Positions 42,308 to 54,689 of a DNA stretch of 64,000 nt are shown here, one piece after another. Below the pieces are notes generated by a model. It was not told the origin of the DNA and did not search any database. It was given only the letters and a program-made list of their open reading frames with translations. Made by a program: the position numbers and the translations under genes. The DNA is from Polytrichum commune (Eukaryota > Streptophyta > Polytrichopsida > Polytrichales > Polytrichaceae), in contig OX485805.1 in NCBI GenBank assembly GCA_950295325.1, positions 48,942,758-49,006,757 on the forward strand. The letters are read 5' to 3'. Each line of letters begins with the position of its first letter. Position 1 is the first letter of the stretch.

Positions 42308-42640
42308 GGTTGAGGTCAATGGCCAAGGTTCAAGGCTTCTGGTTGAGGCCACGGCCAAGGTCCAAGGCTTCGGGTTGAGGCAGACGGCCTAAGGTTAAAG
42401 GCTTCTGGTTGAGGGAGTTGCCAAGGTTCAAGGCTTCTGGTTGAGGCCACAGCCAAGGTCCAAGGCTTCGGGTTGAGGCAGATGGCCTAAGGTTAAAGGC
42501 TTCTGGTTGAGGGAGCTGCCAAGGTTCAAGGCTTCCGGTTGAGGCCACGGCCTAAGGTCCAAGGCTTCTGGTTGAGGCCACGGCCTAAGGTCCAAGGCTT
42601 CGGGTTGAGGCAACGGTCGAGGGCAAGGGATTCTGGGTGA
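42308..42640. repeat. Minisatellite in solo LTR 2
   Basis: Roughly eleven units of 28-32 bases of the type GGTTGAGGCCACGGCCAAGG followed by TCCAAGGCTTC. A higher-order period of about 120 bases alternates GGCAGACGGCCTAAGG and GGGAGTTGCCAAGG variants. It sits at the position occupied by an unrelated minisatellite in LTR 1. Confidence 0.9.
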
Positions 42641-42736: not shown

Positions 42737-42749
42737 GTTCATTAGCAAA
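42737..42749 (+). repeat. 13-bp target site duplication of the LINE (3' side)
   Basis: GTTCATTAGCAAA is identical to 54677-54689 and lies next to the TTTC-rich tail. Confidence 0.93.
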
Positions 42750-42904
42750 GAAAGAAAGAAACGAAAAATTACGCCCGTACATTGTACCGGCATGAATGTG
42801 AGCCCGTTATCCAAATGTTTAACACGGCGAGCCGTGTTGTCACAGAAGGAGTTATGCCTCTTGTGGGAGGTGGGCTCTGTTAGTTTGTAATGTTCGGTCC
42901 CGTT
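42750..42904 (-). other. LINE 3' UTR with TTTC simple-repeat tail
   Basis: On the sense strand it ends ATTTTTCGTTTCTTTCTTTC immediately before the target duplication. The reverse transcriptase probably primes from this tail. It is comparable with the short simple-repeat tails of I and some other non-L1 clades. Confidence 0.75.
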
Positions 42905-43049
42905 TTAGGGTGGTGCGACGGTATTTTGTTTATTGTCTAGTTTTCTTTTGTTAAGTACAAGGTATGTTAAGTATTTAATGGCATTTTGGTGTATGTTTTT
43001 CATGAGAGTTTTGACGCTAGTTTTTGGTATTTTGAGGTCTGTTAGCCTT

Positions 43050-43567
43050 GTGATGGATTGTTCGTGTATGGCGCCTCTTACGCCAGCTGTGATAGTTATG
43101 AGGGGGTTTGTTTTCCAGCCTTTGCTCCGTATAGCATTGATTAGTGGGTCGTATTTTGTATGTTTTTGTGTGAGTGCTTGTTCGGGGAATCTGTCATGGC
43201 AATATGTGAATTCAATGAATTGTATTGTGTGGGCGGGTGAGGGTATAAGGGGTGTTGAGGCTTGGTTTGGGGCTCCTAGTATACAAAGAATGTCTGGGCG
43301 TAGTCTTGCTTGGCATTGGCACTGTGCTTGTGGGCATGTGCATTCTAGGAGCCATTCTAGGACCGTTTGTTGTTGGTTTATGTTATTGAGGAATCCTGCA
43401 TTTGTTAATGTGTAGTATCTTGTGTGTTTGTTGGCTTGTAGTGTTTGAGTGATGAAGTGAACCGCGTTGTTGTGGCGGGCTATTCTTAGGCCTTTTAGAT
43501 AGGGGTGTTCGCACATTGATAGTAGATGGGGCCATGTGTCTCTATCATGTTTGTAGCATAGTGTGCA
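43050..43567 (-). other. CCHC knuckle and restriction-like endonuclease (RLE) domain of LINE ORF2
   Basis: Within the frame 44017-42905, Cys151, Cys154, His164 and Cys169 (NCTLCYKHDRDTWPHLLSMC) form a C-x2-C-x9-H-x4-C knuckle. After about 70 residues comes ARLRPDILCILGAP (Pro241-Asp242), then IQFIEFTYCHDRF (Glu269), then QKHTKYD (Lys285, Lys288) and LITITAGVRGA. The order CCHC, PD, acidic strand and KxxKY is that of the R2-type PD-(D/E)XK endonuclease that nicks target DNA. The position two after Glu269 is Thr rather than Lys, so in this copy the catalytic Lys would have to come from KxxKY or be lost. The family normally has either this domain or APE; here both are present. Confidence 0.65.
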
Positions 43568-43929
43568 ATTGGGGTTTCGGAATTTGAGGGGCCAAAAAAT
43601 GTTTTTTCTGTGGTTACCCATATATTGGGCATATCTGAATTTTAGTGTTTGGGTGATTTGAGCGTCTGTTATTTTTGTGTTTTTCCAAAAGTGGTTGGAG
43701 AGTTTTTGATTTATATGGTCGTTAGTTAACCATTTTTCTACATATGGGAATTTGTGTTGGGCATGTGTTTTTTCTCGGTTGGTGTGTTCTTTTAGTATGA
43801 ATTTGTGAACATTTCTGATAGCTCCATCGTGGGTGGCGGTTGGGCAACTTGCTAGCCAGTAAGGTGTGGCGTGTGCCAGGTGGATGTGTGGATGTGTGGG
43901 GTGTTGGTTGGTTTTTCTTGAAGGTTTCC

Positions 43930-44340
43930 TTCGTTGGCTAATATGTCCGCTTTTTCGTTTCCCACAATTCCTGTGTGGGCTCGTACTTTGTGGATGTGGA
44001 TGGAGTGTGGAGTCCAATAGATTTGGTGTATTATGGTTGCTATGAGGAGTTTATCGGGGTGGTGATGTTGCGAGGTTGGGCGTTGAATATGGTTGTTAAT
44101 TAAGTATATACTGTTAAGGCTATCTGTGAATATGTGTGTGTCCATTTGGGTAGTTTGTATGGTTTTGACCGCTATGAGTATGGCGTTGAGTTCTGCTCTG
44201 AGTATGTTTTGGTATCCCGGTAATCTCTCTGAGATTTGGATGTCTTGGTGGGGACTATATACTCCGGAGCCGGCCGTGTTGCCTATTATTTGGTCTTCCG
44301 AGTTTTTTGATGGGGGGATGAATGACCCGTCGGTGTACAT
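43930..44340 (-). other. RNase H domain of LINE ORF2
   Basis: YTDGSF (Asp4 of the frame at 44340), LRAELNAILIAVKTIQ (Glu50), HIFTDSLNSIYLI (Asp73) and KVRAHTGIVGNEKADILANE (His122, Asp132) give the full DEDD set plus the catalytic His loop of type I RNase H. It removes the RNA strand of the cDNA hybrid. The HxGxxGNExAD ending is the form found in I/R1-group and other LINEs, distinct from the archaeal-type RNase H of plant L1 elements. After it the frame changes into the C-terminal domain at about 43930. Confidence 0.9.
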
Positions 44341-44517
44341 GCATTGTTGTGGTTGGTATTTAGGGGGGTGTGGGTGTAGTATTTATTTGGTAAAGGCATT
44401 GGAGTGGTGGTTGTTGTTACGGGAGTATCTATTTTGGGAGCATTTTTCCATGTATTTGAGAATTTGATATGGTAGTTTGGTGCGGTGGGTTTGATGGGGT
44501 AGGTGTCAATGTGTGTG

Positions 44518-45264
44518 TTAGTGGTTAGTTTTAGTGCATGTGTGAGTGCGGGGGGGGGGGGGGGTTAGGTTCGGTGCTAAGTGTGTTTGGCTATGTATAC
44601 AAATTATTGAGACTAGGGACGGTTCTTCGTAGTGGTAGTATTTTGGCCATTCGGGCGTAGGGTTGTATTGTATTGTATGTGGAGGGATAGTGGCTAGTAT
44701 GTGTATGTCTCCCTTTGTTGAGATTGGGAATTGTTGTGGCGTCCAATCATTATGGTTGATTACGAGGATAGTTATTGTGTCTATGTCTTCCTTAGCTGCC
44801 ATACGGGCCCAATGGATGGCTTCTATCGTTGTGTTGTAGTCCGTGGGGTGTGCGAGGCCAATACCTTTCCATCTAGAAGATTGGGCATGACCCAAGGAGC
44901 CAAAGATTTTATCTCGGTTGTGTGGGGAGTAAAATTGTGTTAGTTGGGTGGGGCACGTGAGGGGGGATGAATAGTATGAGTGTGTGATGTTAAGTGATTC
45001 TATTAATGTCTTGGTGATTGTTGGGTGTATTGTATGGTGGAGGTTGTTTGGTAGTGTGTTTTTTGGTTTTTTCTTAGGAAGGATTGTGATGTATCTTTGT
45101 ATAAGCCATAGTACTTCTGTTTCGAAATTTTGGGGTGGGGGTTGGATTTCATTGATTAAGTGGGTATGGTTGTTATGTGAGAATTGATCCCAAAGCCATT
45201 GTAGTCTTTCAATGGTAAGGGTGGCCACGTAGTTGCATGTGGAGTCGTATATGTTGGCCTCCAA
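44518..45264 (-). other. Uncharacterised ORF2 domain between RT and RNase H, methyltransferase-like
   Basis: A 248-codon frame has features I read as PCIF1-like: SYYSSPLTCPTQL (residues 96-108), FYSPHNRDKIFGSLG (111-125), WKGIGLAHPTDY (132-143), TITILVINHNDW (163-174) and ILATIPPHTIQY (189-200). In PCIF1-type N6-adenosine methyltransferases the order is FxSPLN, FGS, NPPF, a hydrophobic strand with Trp, and IPPF-x-HxY. Here the NPPF site would be HPTD, lacking the catalytic Asn, so activity is doubtful. Similarity was judged by eye only. The frame is continuous with the downstream RNase H frame through three stops. A C-run (G-run on +, 44554-44567) lies just before the 3' end of this frame. 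Confidence 0.4.
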
Positions 45265-45335
45265 GGCTTGTATTTGGATGGTAGGTTGGGTCGTTTGTAT
45301 ATCTTTATCGGGGTTGCATTCGTGTATAGATAGTG

Positions 45336-47360
45336 TTAGATTGGTAATTCTTCGGGTGGGTGTACATATTTGTTGTCTTTTGTTTGTTTGTGGTTGAGAA
45401 AGTTGGTGTATGTTTGTATGTTTTGTTGTTTTGTTTGGGTTTGGTGGTATTGTGTTATGCGTAGTATGTTATGTTCAAGGAGGATGTTATCTGGGTGAAT
45501 TAGTTCTTCTTCTTTGCGCCATTGTTGGGAGATTCCTTGTGGTAGTTGCCATTGGCATAGGTACATTCGTTTTATGGCTTGTGCTCCCCATTTGTCTTTT
45601 CGGATGTTGGTTTTGTCATTGATTATTTTTTGGATGGGTTGCCCTAGTGTGGGTTGGGCAGTTATGGTGGGAGTGTTAGAAGCATGAGGGTCTTGAGGGA
45701 GGGACGTGGGTATTGTGACGGTTGGAGTAGGGAATAATATTGTGGCTTGTTGGAGGGCTTCTTTGATAAGTTTTGGGGCGTGTTTATATTTGGCTTTGAA
45801 TTCTTGGGGGGTGAAGATGGTTTTTGTGTCGGGGTTTTGGATTTGGGGTAGTGTGGTGATGCCGTATATGTAGAGTTTATTTAAATATTTTTGGATTTTG
45901 GTTATGGAATTTTCCGTGAGGTTGGCGTAGTTGGGATTAGTTGTCCAAGTTTGTTCTAATGGTGTCTTTCTAATGGGGAATGATCGTTTTGCGGAGGTGA
46001 CATGTATTTCATATTCCCTTTCGAGGAGAAATAGCGTTCGAGCTATGGGCGATCTTATGCATGCTTGTTGCTTGAGTTTAGGTAGGTGGAGTGAGCCGCC
46101 ATATTTGGCCATAATATGTTTTGTGAGTCCTTGGTAGATGATACCTAATTGACCGGGATCGTTAAGGGCTTGGATTAATTGTTGGCCTATGCATCTTACA
46201 TAGTCCGGTAGGAGGGAAGTTGCATTGATTCCAAAGTTTTCGTGAGGGAGGTGAATGAGGATATTGGCCGTGCTTTTGGGGATGTGACATATGTCTTTGG
46301 TTAACTTACTAATTATTTTGTCCAATTTTTTAATGTCAGGTTTGGAAAATGAGACTTCATAGTATGCGTATGCTATACGAGGTTTAATGACCGTGTTTAG
46401 GATTTTTATTTTTTGTATAAGGCTAGCTGGCGAGTTGGCTAACAATTGACTTTGTTGTTTGACTTTATTTAATGTTGTTTCTATTTGTAGATTCTATTTA
46501 AGTGATGGTGCCAATTATATACCTAGGTAGGTGTAGGATTCATTTTGGGTGAGGATGGAAGATTTTTGTGAATTGTACGTGATATTTTGGGATTGGATGT
46601 AGGCTTTGAAGGTATTAGGCTTGAGTTTACATTTATTAGGGCATCCGGTGATGGCGCATTTTGAGAGGTTGAGATCCATGTAGGACCATTCCGCATATTT
46701 TTGTAATTTGATGATTTGCGTTTGGATGTTTTGTATGTTGTCCGTGAGGATGGCTAAGTCATCGGCGTAGGCGGTGGTGGTGCACGTGGAATGGGAGGTA
46801 TTGAAGTGGTATCCTACATCATCTTTCTCTAGCCATCTTAGGAGTGGTTCAAGAAAGATAATAAATAAATATGGACTAAGGGTGTCTCCTTGTATCGTCC
46901 CTCTACTTATTCGTATTGGGGGAGTTGTCCTGAAGTGGCTTCTCGCAAAGGAGGTGGAGGAGTTTTCATAAATGTTGCCCACTATTTCCACCGCGTCTAG
47001 GGGGTAGCCTAGGTCTTCCATTAGGGTGAGGAGGCGGGCGTGGTCTATGGATCCAAATGCGTTTCGGAAATCGATGTAGGTTAAATATATGTCTTGTGTG
47101 ATAAGTTTGGCATCTTCTAAGGCCGCTATGATGGTTTGGATTTGGCGTGATGTATTTCGTTGTGGTCTAAAACCTTCTTGGCTAAAGTGGAGTAATCTAT
47201 GTTGCTCTCCGTAGTTCGTTAGTAATGTGGTTAGTGTGCTTGTGTAGAGTTTATAAATCGTGTTGGCTAATGCTATTGGTCTATAGTTGGCTAGATGAGT
47301 CGGGTCGTCTTTTTTGTGCAGTAATATTGTTTTACTATGTTTCCAGTGGTGCGGGATTGT
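45336..47360 (-). other. Reverse transcriptase domain and thumb of LINE ORF2
   Basis: Sense-strand motifs run in order. KKDDPTHLANYRPIALANTI and GFRPQRNTSRQI (RT1-RT2a, about 47300-47150) are followed by YLTYIDFRNAFGSIDH (motif A, Asp of DF, near 47060), RGTIQGDTLSPYLF (motif B, 46904-46863) and TAYADDLAIL (motif C with the YADD catalytic pair, 46769-46758). SYTYLGI follows near 46520, then a long thumb/connector (46445-45336, with KPRIAYAYYEVSF). The frame is open through motifs B and C. This catalyses target-primed reverse transcription. YADD rather than FADD and the long connector separate it from RTE elements. Confidence 0.92.
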
Positions 47361-48419
47361 CCTTTGTTTGTAACAGTGGGTAAAGAAGAGGAAAATGAGA
47401 TCGTGTCATTGCGGTGGGAGCGCTTTGAGTATGTCATTAGGGATGTTATCCGGGTCGGGGGCTTTTCCTCTTGTTAAGCGTTTGATGCAGCAATCGTATA
47501 TTTCTCTAGTAAATTGGTGGGTTATTTGTGTATTTAGGGGGCCTCTCTTATCTAGGATGAAGCCTTGTTGTAAGTGCCATGGATATTTGCGGACTGCGCA
47601 TGTGCATGTGTTTGGGTGGTCCGTGACGTCATCACATAAGGGGGTTTGTCTTTGAAATGATTGTTATTATGTTTGGTATATTTCTTGGGCTATGTCTTGG
47701 GGATTGACAATGATTTGTCCGTGTATATTCTGGAGGCAATCTAGAGAGTTGTTGGTTATCGGGTTAAATATCTTTTTGTGGATGGTTTTGGGTTTGCTAT
47801 TAAGTAGGGCTCTATATTTTGTAATGGCTATTTTACAGTTGGTAGATGTTTGTTTAGTGATGATTTTGTGGGCTTCGCTCTTGGCATTTTTACCGATTTT
47901 GGCGAGTTCTTCTACCCAAGTATGTAAGTCCGCGGGATTGATAGGTAAGGGTGGGATATTAGGTGTTTGGATTAATTGGAGGGATATGATGTCGGGTTCG
48001 TTGTGATGGTGAGTGAGGGGGTATTGACATGTGGCTCTTATGGCTTTACGAATGGTATGGTGTACTTTTAGTAGTCGTTTCCATTTCTTTTGTTGTGTTC
48101 TAGGGAGGAAGCCTCTTTGGTTTTTGATTCTATTAGGTAGAGGCGGGGTAGGTTTTGTCATACAAGTGTGTTCAATACATTGACTTAGGGAGTTGATGAT
48201 TGCTTGAAGTGTAATTTGTGCGTTCTCCCATTGTGTGTGTGTGAAGTGATCATGTTGGAGAATTTTTGTGAGGTCTTCTATTGCTAAGTTTTGTTTTTCT
48301 ATGAATGTGATTTGTAGGGTTTGGAGGCTTTTGGGGGGTATGGGATATGTGATACGGGGTTGGTTTGTGGGTGTATTGTGGTTTTTGATGATTATGCTAT
48401 TTGGGTTTAGTTGGAGTTG

Positions 48420-49507
48420 GACCGGGTAGTGGTCCGAGTTTTGGTTGAGGTTAGTTATTGTATGGCTTATGAGGTTCGGGTGTGGGAAGTGTTAGTGTAA
48501 AAACCGTTTGTGTGACTTGTGGATATGTAGTTGTGGCCTCCTTGTTTTGTGAGTGGTTTTGGGTTAGGGTTATTGGCTTGTGTGAAGCGGGCCTATTCTT
48601 GGTCGTTGTGGTTGGGAGGTGTAGGGATGCCATTATATATTCTACCTTTGAGTAAGATATCTCGATTGAAGTCTCCTCCTAATATTGTTTGGTGGTTAGT
48701 GTGTTGGGTCATGAGGGTAAGGATTTTATTTTGAATGTCCGGTATAATGTGTATGTCTTGTGGATGTGTTGGCATATACATATTTAATAGGAGTATTGGT
48801 GTTAATGGTTTGTTGTTGATTAGGATGGCTTGGAGGTATGGTGATATGTGATTCGGGGTTGGGATTTTGGCTATGTTTTCGTTTGTATATATTGATTTTG
48901 GTATCATGGTAAGTATGTCTCCTCTTGTTTGTGTGGGCCCGGAGTATCTATTATGCCTTTGTGTCATGTTGTTGGAATTGTTGTATATTAGTTTGTAGTT
49001 TTGTAGCCGGCGGTCTATATATGATGTGGATTTTGTTTTTGGGATTTTGGTTTCTTGGATAAGGATGATGTGAGGGTCTGGGTGTAATTTTCTTGTGAGC
49101 TCTTGGATACCGGGTAGGCTAATGCTAATGCATCCGGTGTTCCAGGTGATTATGTTTAAGGTTTGAGTTTGAAGGTTGTTTGGTCTTGTGTCGCTAGGTG
49201 GTGTGTGTTGGTTGTTTGTTGGTCGTGTGGTAGGGTGGTGTCCTATTATAGGTTGAGTGCATTTGGTTAGTTCTTGTAATATTTTTGTTGGGAGGTGAGG
49301 TAGTTCTATCCATAGGCTATTTAGAGTTATAGGTATTCCTCTGGCTATTTTGTCATTAATGTTGGAATATGCTTGTGTTATGGTTGTTGTGGTTGTGTAC
49401 ATGAGGGGATAGTTATTTATGTGTGTTGGTGTTGAGTATGTGTCTATGGGAAGTGCTTGAAGTCTCCTTAGGATGATTAGGTATCTTGGGTCTAGTTTTG
49501 TGGTCAT
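48420..49507 (-). other. APE-type endonuclease domain of LINE ORF2
   Basis: In the frame at 49507-48593: LNIITWNTGCIS (Asn123), HIILIQETKIPK (metal-binding Glu152), ILLLNMYMPTHP, and TILGGDFNRD (Asp279, Asn281). Beyond a frameshift, NSDHYPVQLQL lies at 48429-48437 with the catalytic Ser-Asp-His. All key exonuclease-endonuclease-phosphatase residues are therefore present. The enzyme nicks the first target strand in APE-bearing LINEs. Confidence 0.9.
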
Positions 49508-49785
49508 TAGTTGATTACAAACTTGTGGTAGTGGGCTATATACTATTATAAGTGCATATCGTATGTGGTGTGTTGGATATTGTGAGAGGAGTAGACTATG
49601 TGTTCGTAGGTGTGTTAGTGCTAGATTTTGGGGATTAGTGGTGGTATGTGAAAGATGAGGTTCGAATAGTTTTTCTAAGTGTGTGTATTGAGGTTTGAGT
49701 GTTAATGTGTTAATGTGTCGGGTAGGAAGTATTGTTTTTGTCTTTTTATATATGCTTGGGGGAGGTTCTTGAGTATGTTGTATAT

Positions 49786-49812
49786 TGGTCCCGGGTTAAG
49801 TTGGATGTCCCC
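49786..49812 (-). other. 2A-like ribosome-skipping motif in LINE ORF2
   Basis: GDIQLNPGP, preceded by the hydrophobic STFILLC, matches the 2A consensus (D-V/I-E-x-N-P-G-P) except for Gln in place of Glu. In known 2A sequences the ribosome fails to form the Gly-Pro bond, so the product would be split just upstream of the APE domain. It is followed by IYNILKNLPQAY. Similar motifs sit at the N-terminus of ORF2 in several animal and trypanosome non-LTR elements. Confidence 0.75.
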
Positions 49813-50871
49813 ACATAAGAGGATGAATGTAGAGTTATTCCATGTGTAATATTGTATGGGTTTGTTTTTAGGGGTTTTGAGGTGTAAGTGTGTTATGTAG
49901 CAAATGTTACCTATTTTGTCTACATTGTTGATTATTATGTGTGGGGTGGGAAGTTTGTTAGGGGGTGTGTATTGTGGGGTGGTGGTTGTATGGTTATTTA
50001 GTGTGAGGTTATAGTGGGGGACGGTGTTGGTAGCTTTGTGGGTTGTGTGCATTATATTTTGTGTGTGTATTGTGGAGTGTGTTGTGTTGTGGGGTATTGG
50101 TGATTTAGTGTGTGTGTGTGTTGTTGGGAGAAGGAGAATAATTGTGAGCATACATATATATCTAGTGGCGGGTAGCTTTTTGTGCATGTTTATGTATGAG
50201 GCGATTTCTCCTAACAAAGTTGCGGTCTTTTGATTATATGGGAGTGAAGTGGTACAACCTATGAGAGGGAGGAGCCATTTGTGATATCCTAGGAGACAAC
50301 TATTCATTATATGTGTGAGGTTAAGTATCATTAGTTTCCTTAGGTGGTGTTGGTTTATTGTTGATGAGTTGTGAGATTTTTCTTGTGTTTGGGGAGCGTA
50401 TGTAGCATGGTATGGAGGTTGTAGTTGGTTAGGGGTAAGGAGGAGACTTAGCCATAGTGTGAAGGTAAGGCTAAGTGTGTTAAATTTATTTGGGTGGTAT
50501 AGTATTTGTAGGTATTGGAGTGTTGGTGTATTATGGTATTGGGCTTTTATGGATTTATGGGGATGTTTTTGATAGTGGACATAATGGTTGTATTGGGTGG
50601 GCCCGTATAATAACCAAGTTGTGAATTTAAGGCTAATTGTTATTGAGTTTCTTAGGTGATAGTATGTGTGTAGTTGTAGTTTTATATATGTGTTGTGTAG
50701 TTTTCTTTGGAGATGAATGAAGAGGCTAGGCTTAATTGTTGGTAGATGTTTTGAGTGTCTTTGGAGATAGTGTGTGATAACAAAAGGATGAGTGCAAGCT
50801 CTTTATTATAAAAATATAAGAAAATATAGCATATGACATATACGATCCATTTGAGGTAGCCTATGGGTTGT

Positions 50872-53137
50872 CTATTCATGGAATGTGGGAGGTCCTTGGT
50901 GGTTCATTTGTGGATTTCCGTGGAAGCCCGGGGGGGCTTGGAGTGGGAGCGGTGGTGCGGTCGTGTTGAGGCCTTGAGGTATGGGAGGTGGAACATTCCT
51001 TTGGAGGAGCTCCGGGGCGGCGGCGGATAGTCTGTTGACTAATCCTTGCATCCGGATGTTTGATTGTTGGAACTCGTGCGCTATCGTTCCAAGGAGCGAT
51101 TGAAGGTGGGTTGTGTGATGGACGATAGTTGCCACCGTTGTTTCGAGTTGTTGATCCGTATGTGTGTTGATGGTGGTGGTCAGGGTGCCGAATTTCTCTT
51201 CGAGTTTATCCTCGAACTCCTTCATGGTTTTAGAGAGATACCTTTCGGTAACTAACGGGTTGGGGTTGGCCGCATTGGTCATTGCTTGGATTTTATCCGC
51301 GATGGCCTCTCGTGCGGGTGCGTGGGCAAGTCGGATTGCCGTGTCGTTGGGAAGCGCGCCGTCGATACTTCCGCGGTGTGGGATGAAGTCGACACGCCTC
51401 TCTAGTATGGATGTAGACTTGTGTAGCCACTCCGTGTAGACCGCGGCGTTTAGGCAATGGATGTGGCACCATCCCGCTTGCTTATCGGTATGTGGGTGAT
51501 TGTTGGCACCATAGTTGATGCCAACGATGTTGTCCGCCCCAAAGACTTGTTTAATGGCGCGCGTGATAGCGGTTTAAGTCTCCCTTTGTGGTAAGTTGTT
51601 GGCGACCAACGTTGTGCTAATTCTAAGCTCCGATGGGTGGCTAGCTCCTCTATCCCGGGTGAGACTCACTTGCAATTTCTCATGGTTAAAGATAATTCCT
51701 TCCTTTAACACTAGATCACGTGCCTCCTCCGTAGTAAGGGTAAGAAAAACGAAATTCTTCTCGAGCTCCGGCTTGGCGAGTCCCATGAACTCGTGTTGTT
51801 TGCCGGTGTAGTAGTTCTCCCGGACAATGGCCTCAAAGATGTCAAAAGCGTGCTCGTGTCGTAGTGAGTCACCTTTGAGGTGAAGTCGGAGATTACGAGC
51901 CTTGGTGGCAAGTTCGTAACCTTTTTCTACTTTACCGATGGCCCGCTCCCCGTCCTCCATTGTCATTACAAATGCGCGGTTTCTTTGGAGAAGTGCAATC
52001 CCATCTTGTTGTGGTTGTTGTAGATGGAGCTTAATGAATCCCGCCCAATGCTTGGTGACGGCGTTGAGGCCTATGTCAAGTGGGTTAGCGTACATTGTAC
52101 CTAGGAAGATATTCATTGTGCGAAGGCGCTCTAGGCAAGCTACACGTGCATCGTGTCTAGCTATACCTTTAAAACCATGATCAAAGCGGATAGTGACTTG
52201 AAAGCCCTCCGATAAACCGGTGGTGGGGTCTACCTTTTCGAATTTTGGGAGTTGGGTGAAGTGGAGATGATTACCCGGGACCGCATCCGGTCGTTCGTTG
52301 GGGTGGAGCATTTGTGGCACCCTTGGGAATGCTCTTCGGAGTGTTGTGAACTCTATGACTTCTTGTGGGGGGGTGCCTACTCTTGCAAATTCCTCCTTGG
52401 TGCGGTGTTCTCGAATGATTTCCTTGCCTCTATAGTTGGCGACGGCTTCGTGGATTGGGAATCCGAGCCACATTCGTGAGACTATATCAATGCTAGGAAT
52501 TGCTTCCTTGGGCCTCATGTTGTAAGATTTATTGGAATCGGAGTGTGTCTTGTGTCGTCCCTCTTCGTTTCGTCTCCTCTTGGCGCTATGGTTGTCGATT
52601 GTGGCCGCTATCCTTGGGGCTCTTGTGTGTGGTGGGTGTGGGAGTCATGTTGGCGAGGTTGATGTTGTCCAATCGTGATGTGGCCGCTTGGTTGAGTACC
52701 GCGACAAACTCATCATTTGACATAGAGAGTCGGAGGGAGCTCCCACCACGCTCGGGGGATACATCATCGAGCTACATATCAATGTCGTAATCGTGAGAAG
52801 GAGGGGGCTTATCTTGCTTAAGTAGCGGTTGCTTTGATGGAGTGGCAGCTTCTTCTTCTTCATCTTCGTCGTTGGTGTCTTCTAGGATGGCCCTTCTGCT
52901 CCTAGTCTTGTATTGTTGAGACCGGCCTCTGGTGCTCCCAGCCCCTGCACCTCTCGTGGCGGCTACTGGTCCCCTGTCACTTACTTGCATTTTGCTGGTA
53001 TCCAGCCGTGTCTCGGCCCCTGCTCCGGTGCGGCTTCTGGATCCTTCGGTGTTGGACCGTCCCCCTGCTTCGCCAGCTGAGCTCTCGACTCCTCCCCTCC
53101 CGACGATCTCCGAGGTTGCCTTCTTCGGGCCCTGCAT
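50872..53137 (-). pseudogene. LINE ORF1 protein (RNA-binding, two RRM-like folds), three lesions
   Basis: ORF1 coats element RNA and moves it to the nucleus. The first sensible Met (MQGPKKATSEIVGRGG) is at 53137. A Gly/Arg/Ser-rich N-terminus is followed by an acidic DTNDEDEEEE stretch, then a TAG at 52772 and a frameshift near 52615. The frame 52518-51574 carries an RRM-like fold (KNFVFLTLTTEEARDLVL). A TAA at 51574 interrupts the second RRM-like fold, TTLVANNLPQRE (RNP2-like) and QAGWCHIHCLNAAVYTEW (RNP1-like). The same frame then continues without further stops to 50872, through a coiled-coil region (TMKEFEDKLEEKFGTLTTTI) and a Pro-rich tail. Each half is open for over 130 codons, so the lesions look recent. 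Composition is balanced, unlike G-poor ORF2. Confidence 0.8.
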
Positions 53138-54676
53138 GGCGAGTTTGCTGTGTGGGTCGGTTGCCGCTTTAGTTGAGGGTGCCCTGCGCTCAGTTCTTGT
53201 GGGGGCCGTTCTGCAAGAGATTGCTATGAGAGAATGAGAGAGAGAGTGGGGTGTGTCGCTGTGTGGTGGACAGAGTGTGGGGGGAGGACCTACTGGGGGG
53301 GAGTGATTTGAGAGAGTGTGAGAGGGGTGAGGTGGGGAGTCTGATGGGAGAGAGTGATCTGGGGGGGTGGGATAGAGAGTGAAGTGTGGTGATGTTTGGT
53401 AATGAGAGTGTGATGAGGGATTCAGTGTGGAGGTGGGGTATTTGAAGGTTAGGTGGTGGGCGAGGGTGGTGTAATCTTTGGTGCGGGCCGGGGTCTGCTT
53501 GGCTGGGTGAGGGATCGGTGGGTTGTGCATCCAGGTGTGTTTCAGCTGATTTTGGGTTGGATTTACGGCGTTGTGTGGCAGGTTGCTTGTCTCTTGTCTG
53601 GGTGTGGGATGGTATTTGTGCATACCTGCTTTGTTTAGGGTGGCTTAGTGTGTTAGATCTCAGCGTGATTAGTGGTGGTTCTGCTGTGATTTTGTTGTTT
53701 CCGATTCGGGGGTCCTCTGTGTGTTGAGAGTGGTGGTGGTCTTGAGTGGGCGGGGGTATGCTGAGGTGGGGTTGTTTGGCTGTCTGTATGGGGATTGTTG
53801 GCGTAGCAGATCGATGGCTGTCCGTTTTGGTGGTATGTGCGGGGGGTTGGGGGTGATCCAATGTGGCAGGTTGCGAGGGAGCGCGTGTGAGGTGGTTATG
53901 GTCGGCCGCGGTCCTGTGAGTGTGTATGTCTGTGCGGCGATATGTGTTCGGAGCGGTTGCGGCCGTTTGGGAGGATGCAATCTGGGCTCGCGGAGGTAAG
54001 CTTTTTGAAAGTGTGATGTTGGGTATTTGGTGTTTCTTGATGGTGGTGTTGCTTGTGTGATAAGTGCAAGTCGTTTTTCTAACCACTGTGGTGTGGCATT
54101 GTGTGGGTGGCGGCGGCGTTTTTGTGGATCGAGGAGCTGGAGTGGTGCGAGGAGGGAGTGTTAGCTGGTAGATGAGTGATCGGAGAGGAGTGTATGGATC
54201 TTGGGGAGTGATTAGTGAGGGGCAGCCAGCTGGTGGGTGCGGTGCTGGAGGCGGGGTGGAGTGTAGACATCTTAGTGAGGAGGGGTAGATTGGAGAGTAG
54301 ATTGGAGGGTGGATTGTGGATGCAATTTTTGGTGTGAGTATTGTGTGGTGTGGGCATACCCACAAAGCATTGGTGCTTAGAAGCACCCATATTATGAGTA
54401 AAGAAAAAACCCTAAATGTTGTTGCTGCTCTTCTATCTTCCACTTGTCTCGGATCTGAGTATGCTTCTGTTGTCCTGTGCTTGGTTCTTGGTTGTCTCCG
54501 TCCGGTGTTGCTGTGGGTTGAGGTTGCCTCTGCAGTGTTGTTAGGGTTTCGGATTTGTTGGTGGCGCAGTCGCCATGGCTCCGCGGCGTTGTGTGTCTGG
54601 GTGCTGGCTTGATGTTGCTTGGCCGGGCTCGGCTCTGCCGGAGCTCTCATCTCCGGAGCTCGCTGTGCAACTAACC
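53138..54676 (-). other. LINE 5' leader (UTR), C/A-rich
   Basis: It is 1.5 kb, poor in G on the sense strand, and rich in CCCCA, CACA and CTCTC runs. It permits long accidental open frames: a 500-codon frame, 54692-53190, starts upstream of the element in LTR sequence. A short hydrophobic peptide FRVFSLLIIWVLLSTNALWV lies at about 54420, but no conserved motif supports coding. It probably contains the internal promoter. Confidence 0.5.
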
Positions 54677-54689
54677 GTTCATTAGCAAA
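54677..54689 (+). repeat. 13-bp target site duplication of the LINE (5' side)
   Basis: GTTCATTAGCAAA is identical to 42737-42749. Confidence 0.93.

Follow-up and report, generated by a model that had tools for sequence, protein, structure and literature searches.

To our knowledge, the Dualen/RandI elements of green algae are the sole group of long interspersed nuclear elements (LINEs) that combines an apurinic/apyrimidinic-like endonuclease (APE) with a restriction-like endonuclease (RLE), and Dualen is said to have been described by Kojima and Fujiwara in 2005 with a cysteine protease domain. In the literature, cited throughout from excerpts, the group is defined by APE plus RLE, with an RNase H also reported (PMC4640811, PMC3636483), it is contained in the core-Reinhardtinia algae compared (PMC8226300), and a short interspersed nuclear element (SINE) of Chlamydomonas that is tied to RandI-2 (RandI-3) ends in a (CTTT)n tail (PMC3747384). 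Evolutionarily, APE-bearing LINEs are thought to have arisen through replacement of the RLE by an APE, with Dualen cited as a link (PMC4640811). Land-plant LINEs are given as L1 and RTE only in the excerpt of PMC9033089, and literature searches on Dualen, RandI and dual endonucleases held no such land-plant element among the matches listed.

Here we describe a LINE of the moss Polytrichum commune, found in a stretch of 64,000 nucleotides of contig OX485805.1 (hereafter the window; C3:48942758-49006757). We consider it likely that this LINE represents a Dualen/RandI-like lineage, amplified in the moss, whose second open reading frame (ORF2) encodes an APE, a reverse transcriptase (RT), a PCIF1-derived domain, an RNase H and an R2-type RLE. 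An earlier note on the window had drawn the comparison with Dualen/RandI, which the definition of that group makes apt; absent from it were the PCIF1-like domain, a 2A-like motif upstream of the APE and a conserved RNA fold in the 3′ untranslated region (UTR).

Domain plan and selection in the LINE family

The element in the window lies on the minus strand and, as the earlier note had read it, is near full-length, measuring 11,927 bp with a TTTC-type tail and lying between exact 13-bp target-site duplications (TSDs) (Table 1). It belongs to a large family that is strongly amplified in the moss genome: in the 407.8-Mb assembly of 64 contigs (C1-C7 account for 406.1 Mb), a query with its RLE region gave at least 129 matches (E ≤ 7e-156, 73-100% identity), all such counts being lower bounds with 129 of 6,905 first-look candidates scored. 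Sixteen other family-1 loci (L002-L017) were compared with the window copy, six of them being ~97% identical over the 3′ 2.6 kb, two ~95.5% identical (one over 1.3 kb only) and the remainder 65-90% identical over aligned pieces.

Ten long relatives (L013-L017 and L024-L028) were read, and the ORF2 of the family follows the order 2A-like NPGP, APE, RT, PCIF1-like domain, RNase H, CCHC knuckle and R2-type RLE motifs. Six of the ten hold all motifs (2A, APE, RT, PCIF-like, RNase H, RHN, PD and KxxKY) in a single open ORF2, of 2,372 codons in L013, 2,422 in L014, 2,919 in L024, 2,924 in L025, 2,663 in L026 and 2,625 in L027; L025 is a near-copy of L026, and L014 is without ~49 residues following YADD. 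One frame holds everything except the 2A-like motif in L015 (2,305 codons) and L016 (2,123), the frame of L017 breaks within the APE, and L028 has one stop between APE and RT. The Pfam matches of L013, L014, L015 and L024 run in the same order, with an APE-type model, RVT_1, PCIF1_WW and RNase_H.

Among the individual domains of the window copy, the APE residues listed in the earlier note (Asn, Glu, GDFN and SDH) appear as TWN, QETK, GDFN and NSDH in a match to Exo_endo_phos (PF03372; E 3.3e-6, 27.4 bits against a cut-off of 24.5), interrupted by one stop and one frameshift, and the YADD reverse transcriptase is confirmed by RVT_1 (PF00078; E 4.3e-17) around AYADDL. The RNase H also stands (PF00075; E 1.2e-16), with YTDGSF, RAEL, FTDS and RAH..GNEKAD, although these motifs form the usual D-E-D-H-D type and not the DEDD type proposed before.

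At the C-terminus, the CCHC knuckle followed by PD, an acidic residue and KxxKY had been noticed as an R2-type layout, and by these motifs we suggest that the region carries an R2-type RLE. Translated in all six frames, the window contains the ordered pattern of CCHC, PD, D/E and KxxKY a single time, and an alignment of nine copies from two branches, in which the other eight are 42-77% identical to the window copy, keeps CCHC, RHN, PD, E and KxxKY invariant in 9/9 rows. The RLE of LINEs has been described by a CCHC knuckle, an RH at the first helix, a variant of PD-(D/E)XK whose catalytic lysine comes first in KX2KY, and a GXW (PMC5678591). In the moss family the knuckle reads CX2CX9HX4C, one residue longer than the CX2-3CX7-8HX4C given in that excerpt; RH is found as RHN in every row, the helix start being that of the literature description; and the catalytic residues of PD, D/E and KX2KY are present in all nine.

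Selection was estimated for L025 against L027, which are 90-96% identical per domain with synonymous divergence (dS) of 0.44-0.61, as the ratio of non-synonymous to synonymous divergence (ω): 0.082 for the RLE, 0.088 for the PCIF-like domain, 0.036 for RNase H, 0.052 for RT and 0.067 for APE. Since ω is low in all five domains, the APE and the RLE are both maintained by purifying selection, which, along with the occurrence of both motif sets in one open ORF2, sustains the claim of two endonucleases in one element. More distant pairs gave ω < 0.5 where computable, with dS mostly > 1 and in part saturated, and are not relied on. A single endonuclease suffices in other LINEs, and one of the two here might thus be a DNA-binding relic with no catalytic role; with the catalytic residues of both endonucleases conserved and both domains under purifying selection, we regard this as unlikely.

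The PCIF1-like domain

Between the RT-linker and the RNase H sits a domain that, by Pfam and profile similarity, is homologous to the cap methyltransferase PCIF1. PCIF1_WW (PF12237) lies over its cut-off in the window copy (E 3.6e-8, 33.6 bits against 31.1) and in L024, L025 and L027, and a profile of 11 copies run against 177,635 PDB sequences gave two matches at E ≤ 10, both of them PCIF1 (6irx, 4e-4; 6irv, 0.045), the latter aligned with NPP opposite hPt-like residues. The motifs SP..C and FGS.G are common to PCIF1 and the LINE domain. A phmmer search of PDB with the lone window region returned nothing at E ≤ 1. Two further results count against the assignment, namely PCIF1_WW scores below the cut-off in L013-L015 and a single-sequence AlphaFold model too poor to use (predicted local distance difference test, pLDDT, 34.5).

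Functionally, NPPF is catalytic in PCIF1 and its first Asn is essential, whereas the LINE domain, embedded in a retrotransposon polyprotein, has this tetrad replaced. None of 31 copies (11 aligned and 20 sampled) keeps NPPF, and the first Asn is replaced in all 31, the aligned copies having HPTD, FPTD, HPPN, HPHN or HPHT and the 20 further loci HPHN, HPHT or HPYN (L045 and L046 are one base apart). The domain is therefore probably a pseudo-methyltransferase, and because the replacement tetrad is itself conserved it probably has a function, which we infer to be, most likely, the binding of RNA rather than its methylation. It could instead be active as an N6-adenosine methyltransferase whose catalytic tetrad is unusual, and by which the element marks its own RNA, as the conservation of the domain (ω from L025 and L027) and the presence of HP[HY][NT] in 20/20 sampled loci would allow; set against the loss of NPPF from every aligned and sampled copy, we find this reading very unlikely.

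We know of no description of a PCIF1-like domain within a LINE, and literature searches on PCIF1 showed no LINE-borne one among the matches listed (titles and abstract openings, with few subscription journals). Of 697 first-look candidates for a PCIF1 gene of the host, 150 were scored and none was taken as such a gene, which leaves room for an unscored one; the best candidate (L029, 55.6 bits) was rejected as the host gene, being a LINE fragment with an RNase H. Separately, the PF12237 matches in the genome comprise several subfamily-specific tetrads.

Evidence for and against the RLE and a Dualen-like affinity

The C-terminus could also be the usual CCHC linker of LINEs, as in plant L1, with no nuclease and with PD and KxxKY present by chance. 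The host L1s do share the CCHC, and a series of results weighs against an R2-type RLE. The GXW described in the excerpt of PMC5678591 is missing, with GVR, GAR or GGR at the place aligned by eye. The RLE profile run against PDB had R2Bm as its top match, at the CCHC-RHN segment and in the corresponding position of the profile, with a weak E of 0.31, and in a phmmer search with the window RLE, R2Bm (E 0.97) was outranked by one protein, of ribosomal type and unrelated (0.41), neither R2Bm match being significant alone; beyond the CCHC-RHN segment, homology to R2 was undetected by phmmer or by the family profile against PDB. In the hidden Markov model search that the earlier note had proposed as a check, the APE, RVT_1 and RNase_H models came out over their Pfam cut-offs while the RLE frame of the window had no match, and the six ORF2s scanned with Pfam (L013, L014, L015, L024, L025 and L027) likewise held no RLE-type family. 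The single-sequence AlphaFold model of the region was too poor to use (pLDDT 33.7).

Against the chance reading stand the PD, E, first K and KY, which remain invariant and in R2-like order at only 42% identity, and the low ω of the region. The ordered pattern is found in 9/9 copies against 0/180,000 shuffles (it was written after the family had been seen, such that the shuffles measure order and not discovery), and the signature is found in 7/7 family loci against 0/4 host L1 loci, all four of which have the CCHC (L035, whose open frame ends before the C-terminus, was left out). On balance, we find a chance linker very unlikely, and an R2-type RLE is the reading that we retain.

Other results bear against the Dualen-like plan as a whole. 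The six scanned ORF2s have no Pfam protease, though a diverged one could escape, and L025 and L027 have no Pfam APE match at E ≤ 0.1, despite GDFN and NSDH standing at the expected position. An IQ-TREE phylogeny, built on 19 RTs that include two group II intron proteins and the host L1 L035 but no Dualen, I or R1 sequence, leaves the order of the moss family, L1 and R2 unresolved, with long branches flagged. It places the moss RTs outside the L1 clade, the three forming separate, well-supported clades (moss family 100/99, L1 97/99, R2 97/97). In favour of the proposed lineage, the RT of L015 is, among solved structures, nearest to R2 (4e-32), with L1 farther (3e-17 at best), and a host L1 RT gives the opposite order (L1 9e-48, R2 1e-22).

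2A-like motif, 3′ UTR and tail

A GD(I/V)xxNPGP motif lies upstream of the APE in 11/11 long loci (the window copy and its ten relatives). The glutamate of the canonical 2A core, and with it D(V/I)ExNPGP, is present in five of these only (L014, L016, L024, L027 and L028). The motif is in frame with ORF2 in 6/10 relatives and with the APE part of ORF2 in L028. Both L013 and L017 have two NPGP motifs, GDIQPNPGP and GDIHPNPGP, ~154 codons apart in L017, and since blastn matched the 2A region twice, it looks duplicated in this subfamily. Natural use of StopGo is not reported for plant viruses, according to the excerpt of PMC12846837.

The 3′ UTR is predicted to fold into three hairpins, two of them inside a GAGCCC/GGGCUC pairing; among 11 family-1 copies (the window copy being L001), seven of the 29 predicted pairs show changes on both sides and two are broken or gapped, each in one copy. 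TTTC-type tails follow on 16/17 family-1 loci, the window copy included (L011 was missed by the search motif), and the flanks beyond them, judged by eye, differ between loci. In L024-L028, no TTTC-type tail was seen in the stretch inspected.

State and setting of the window copy

The window copy itself is inactive: its ORF1 has two in-frame stops (TGA at 52645-52647 and TAA at 51574-51576), and its ORF2 is broken over several frames, as seen by frame reading and by tblastn with ORF1 and ORF2 of L014, whose matches start at ORF1 and extend through several frames as far as the C-terminus. These broken frames could suggest two different LINEs nested or fused at the locus, with a false two-endonuclease plan, a reading refuted by the uninterrupted single ORF2s of the same domain order on C1, C4 and C5, opposed also by the one TSD pair around the whole copy, and to which we assign next to no probability.

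Table 1 Features of the LINE copy, in positions of the window.
Feature	Position	Strand	Evidence
Whole LINE copy, inactivated	42750..54676	-	Flanking 13-bp TSD; tblastn matches to L014 ORF1 and ORF2 along the copy
5′ TSD copy, TTTGCTAATGAAC	54677..54689	-	Exact 13-bp match to 3′ copy
ORF1	50875..52713	-	tblastn; RRM-like repeats are a guess by eye
2A-like motif, GDIQLNPGP	49786..49812	-	Motif; Q in place of the E of canonical DxExNPGP
APE endonuclease (TWN, QETK, GDFN, NSDH), approximate bounds	48425..49160	-	Pfam PF03372, frames, motifs
Reverse transcriptase (AYADDL), one internal stop	46518..47663	-	Pfam PF00078, frames, tree
PCIF1-like domain, NPPF replaced by HPTD	44578..45294	-	Pfam PF12237, alignment, family profile against PDB
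RNase H, D-E-D-H-D type	43936..44343	-	Pfam PF00075, motifs
ORF2 C-terminal region, RLE query	42908..43828	-	Genome search, alignment, profile
CCHC knuckle and RLE signature (CCHC, RHN, CxCx4CxC, PD, E, KxxKY)	43151..43567	-	Motifs, pattern search
Structured 3′ UTR: three hairpins, two of them enclosed by GAGCCC/GGGCUC	42763..42877	-	Covariation, 11 copies
TTTC-type tail, start approximate	42750..42766	-	TTTC-rich run; like tails on family-1 loci
3′ TSD copy, TTTGCTAATGAAC	42737..42749	-	Exact 13-bp match to 5′ copy

The Pfam scan of the window covered 10 frames, four of which had a match over the cut-off, two sub-threshold matches only and four none. For ORF1 (two window frames and L014) no family rose over its cut-off; a weak match to SKA1 prompted a family search, whose four matches on C3 have no bearing on the LINE. 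Some 140 bases past the 3′ TSD, a minus-strand unit, CTTGGACCTTAGGCCGTGGCC, is repeated at 42543-42563 and 42576-42596.

Outside the moss, the viral contigs (RLE, PCIF and RT alignments) and genome contigs (RT alignment) held no confirmed relative. An unannotated stretch of the plasmid record NZ_CP104070.1 (listed as Alicyclobacillus; L036) encodes a LINE-like RT in broken frames (tblastn E 5e-12), which may be eukaryotic contamination and was left out of the RT tree because of its broken frame. Elsewhere in the moss genome, C5:1751760-1846160 has fourteen equal-scoring whole-domain matches to LHC-type antenna genes in ~95 kb. A light-harvesting protein encoded by this genome is closest, after the multi-domain record 9vfj, to the chains 8htu and 7xqp, of which 7xqp is from the moss P. 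patens (PMC12965295) and 8htu is given as PpPSI-L (PMC10005731), pointing to a green plant that is probably a moss.

Comparison with known LINEs and proposed mechanism

By its predicted domain content the moss LINE is Dualen-like, not a proven member of that group. It shares with Dualen/RandI an APE and an RLE (the latter by motif) in one LINE, along with RT and RNase H, and its TTTC-type tail resembles the CTTT-type tail of the RandI-linked SINE (PMC3747384). It differs in its host, a moss and not an alga; the PCIF1-like domain and the 2A-like motif were found in the moss LINE, with Dualen compared by description only. With R2 and other RLE-bearing LINEs it has in common the C-terminal CCHC, RH, PD, acidic residue and KxxKY, and an RT nearest R2 among solved structures, but it adds an APE, an RNase H and a PCIF1-like domain, its 3′ flanks vary, and it has no GXW. 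The APE-RT-CCHC plan is that of plant L1 (for example, the host L1s L031-L034), whereas the RTs form a separate clade, L1 is without the RLE signature, and L1 tails are of A (PMC9033089, excerpt) instead of TTTC.

Mechanistically, we posit that the RT would bind the folded 3′ UTR and copy it by target-primed reverse transcription at an endonuclease nick. The first nick would most likely be made by the APE, given that no relation is apparent between the 3′ flanks of different copies; the RLE would then cut or resolve the second strand, and the RNase H would remove the template RNA. In part of the translation product, the 2A-like motif may split off the peptide that precedes it, and the PCIF1-like domain would most likely bind RNA, with the element's own mRNA, at its capped 5′ end, as one possible target. 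More speculatively, and in our estimate unlikely, a cap-adenosine methyltransferase may have been recruited as a cap reader or an altered RNA-modifying enzyme, alongside two nucleases for two cuts and 2A recoding; if true, PCIF1-type chemistry or recognition would act in cis on RNA under reverse transcription.

With an amplified dual-endonuclease lineage that has intact copies in a land plant, the role of each nuclease would become testable, and dual-endonuclease LINEs would reach beyond algae, into land plants.

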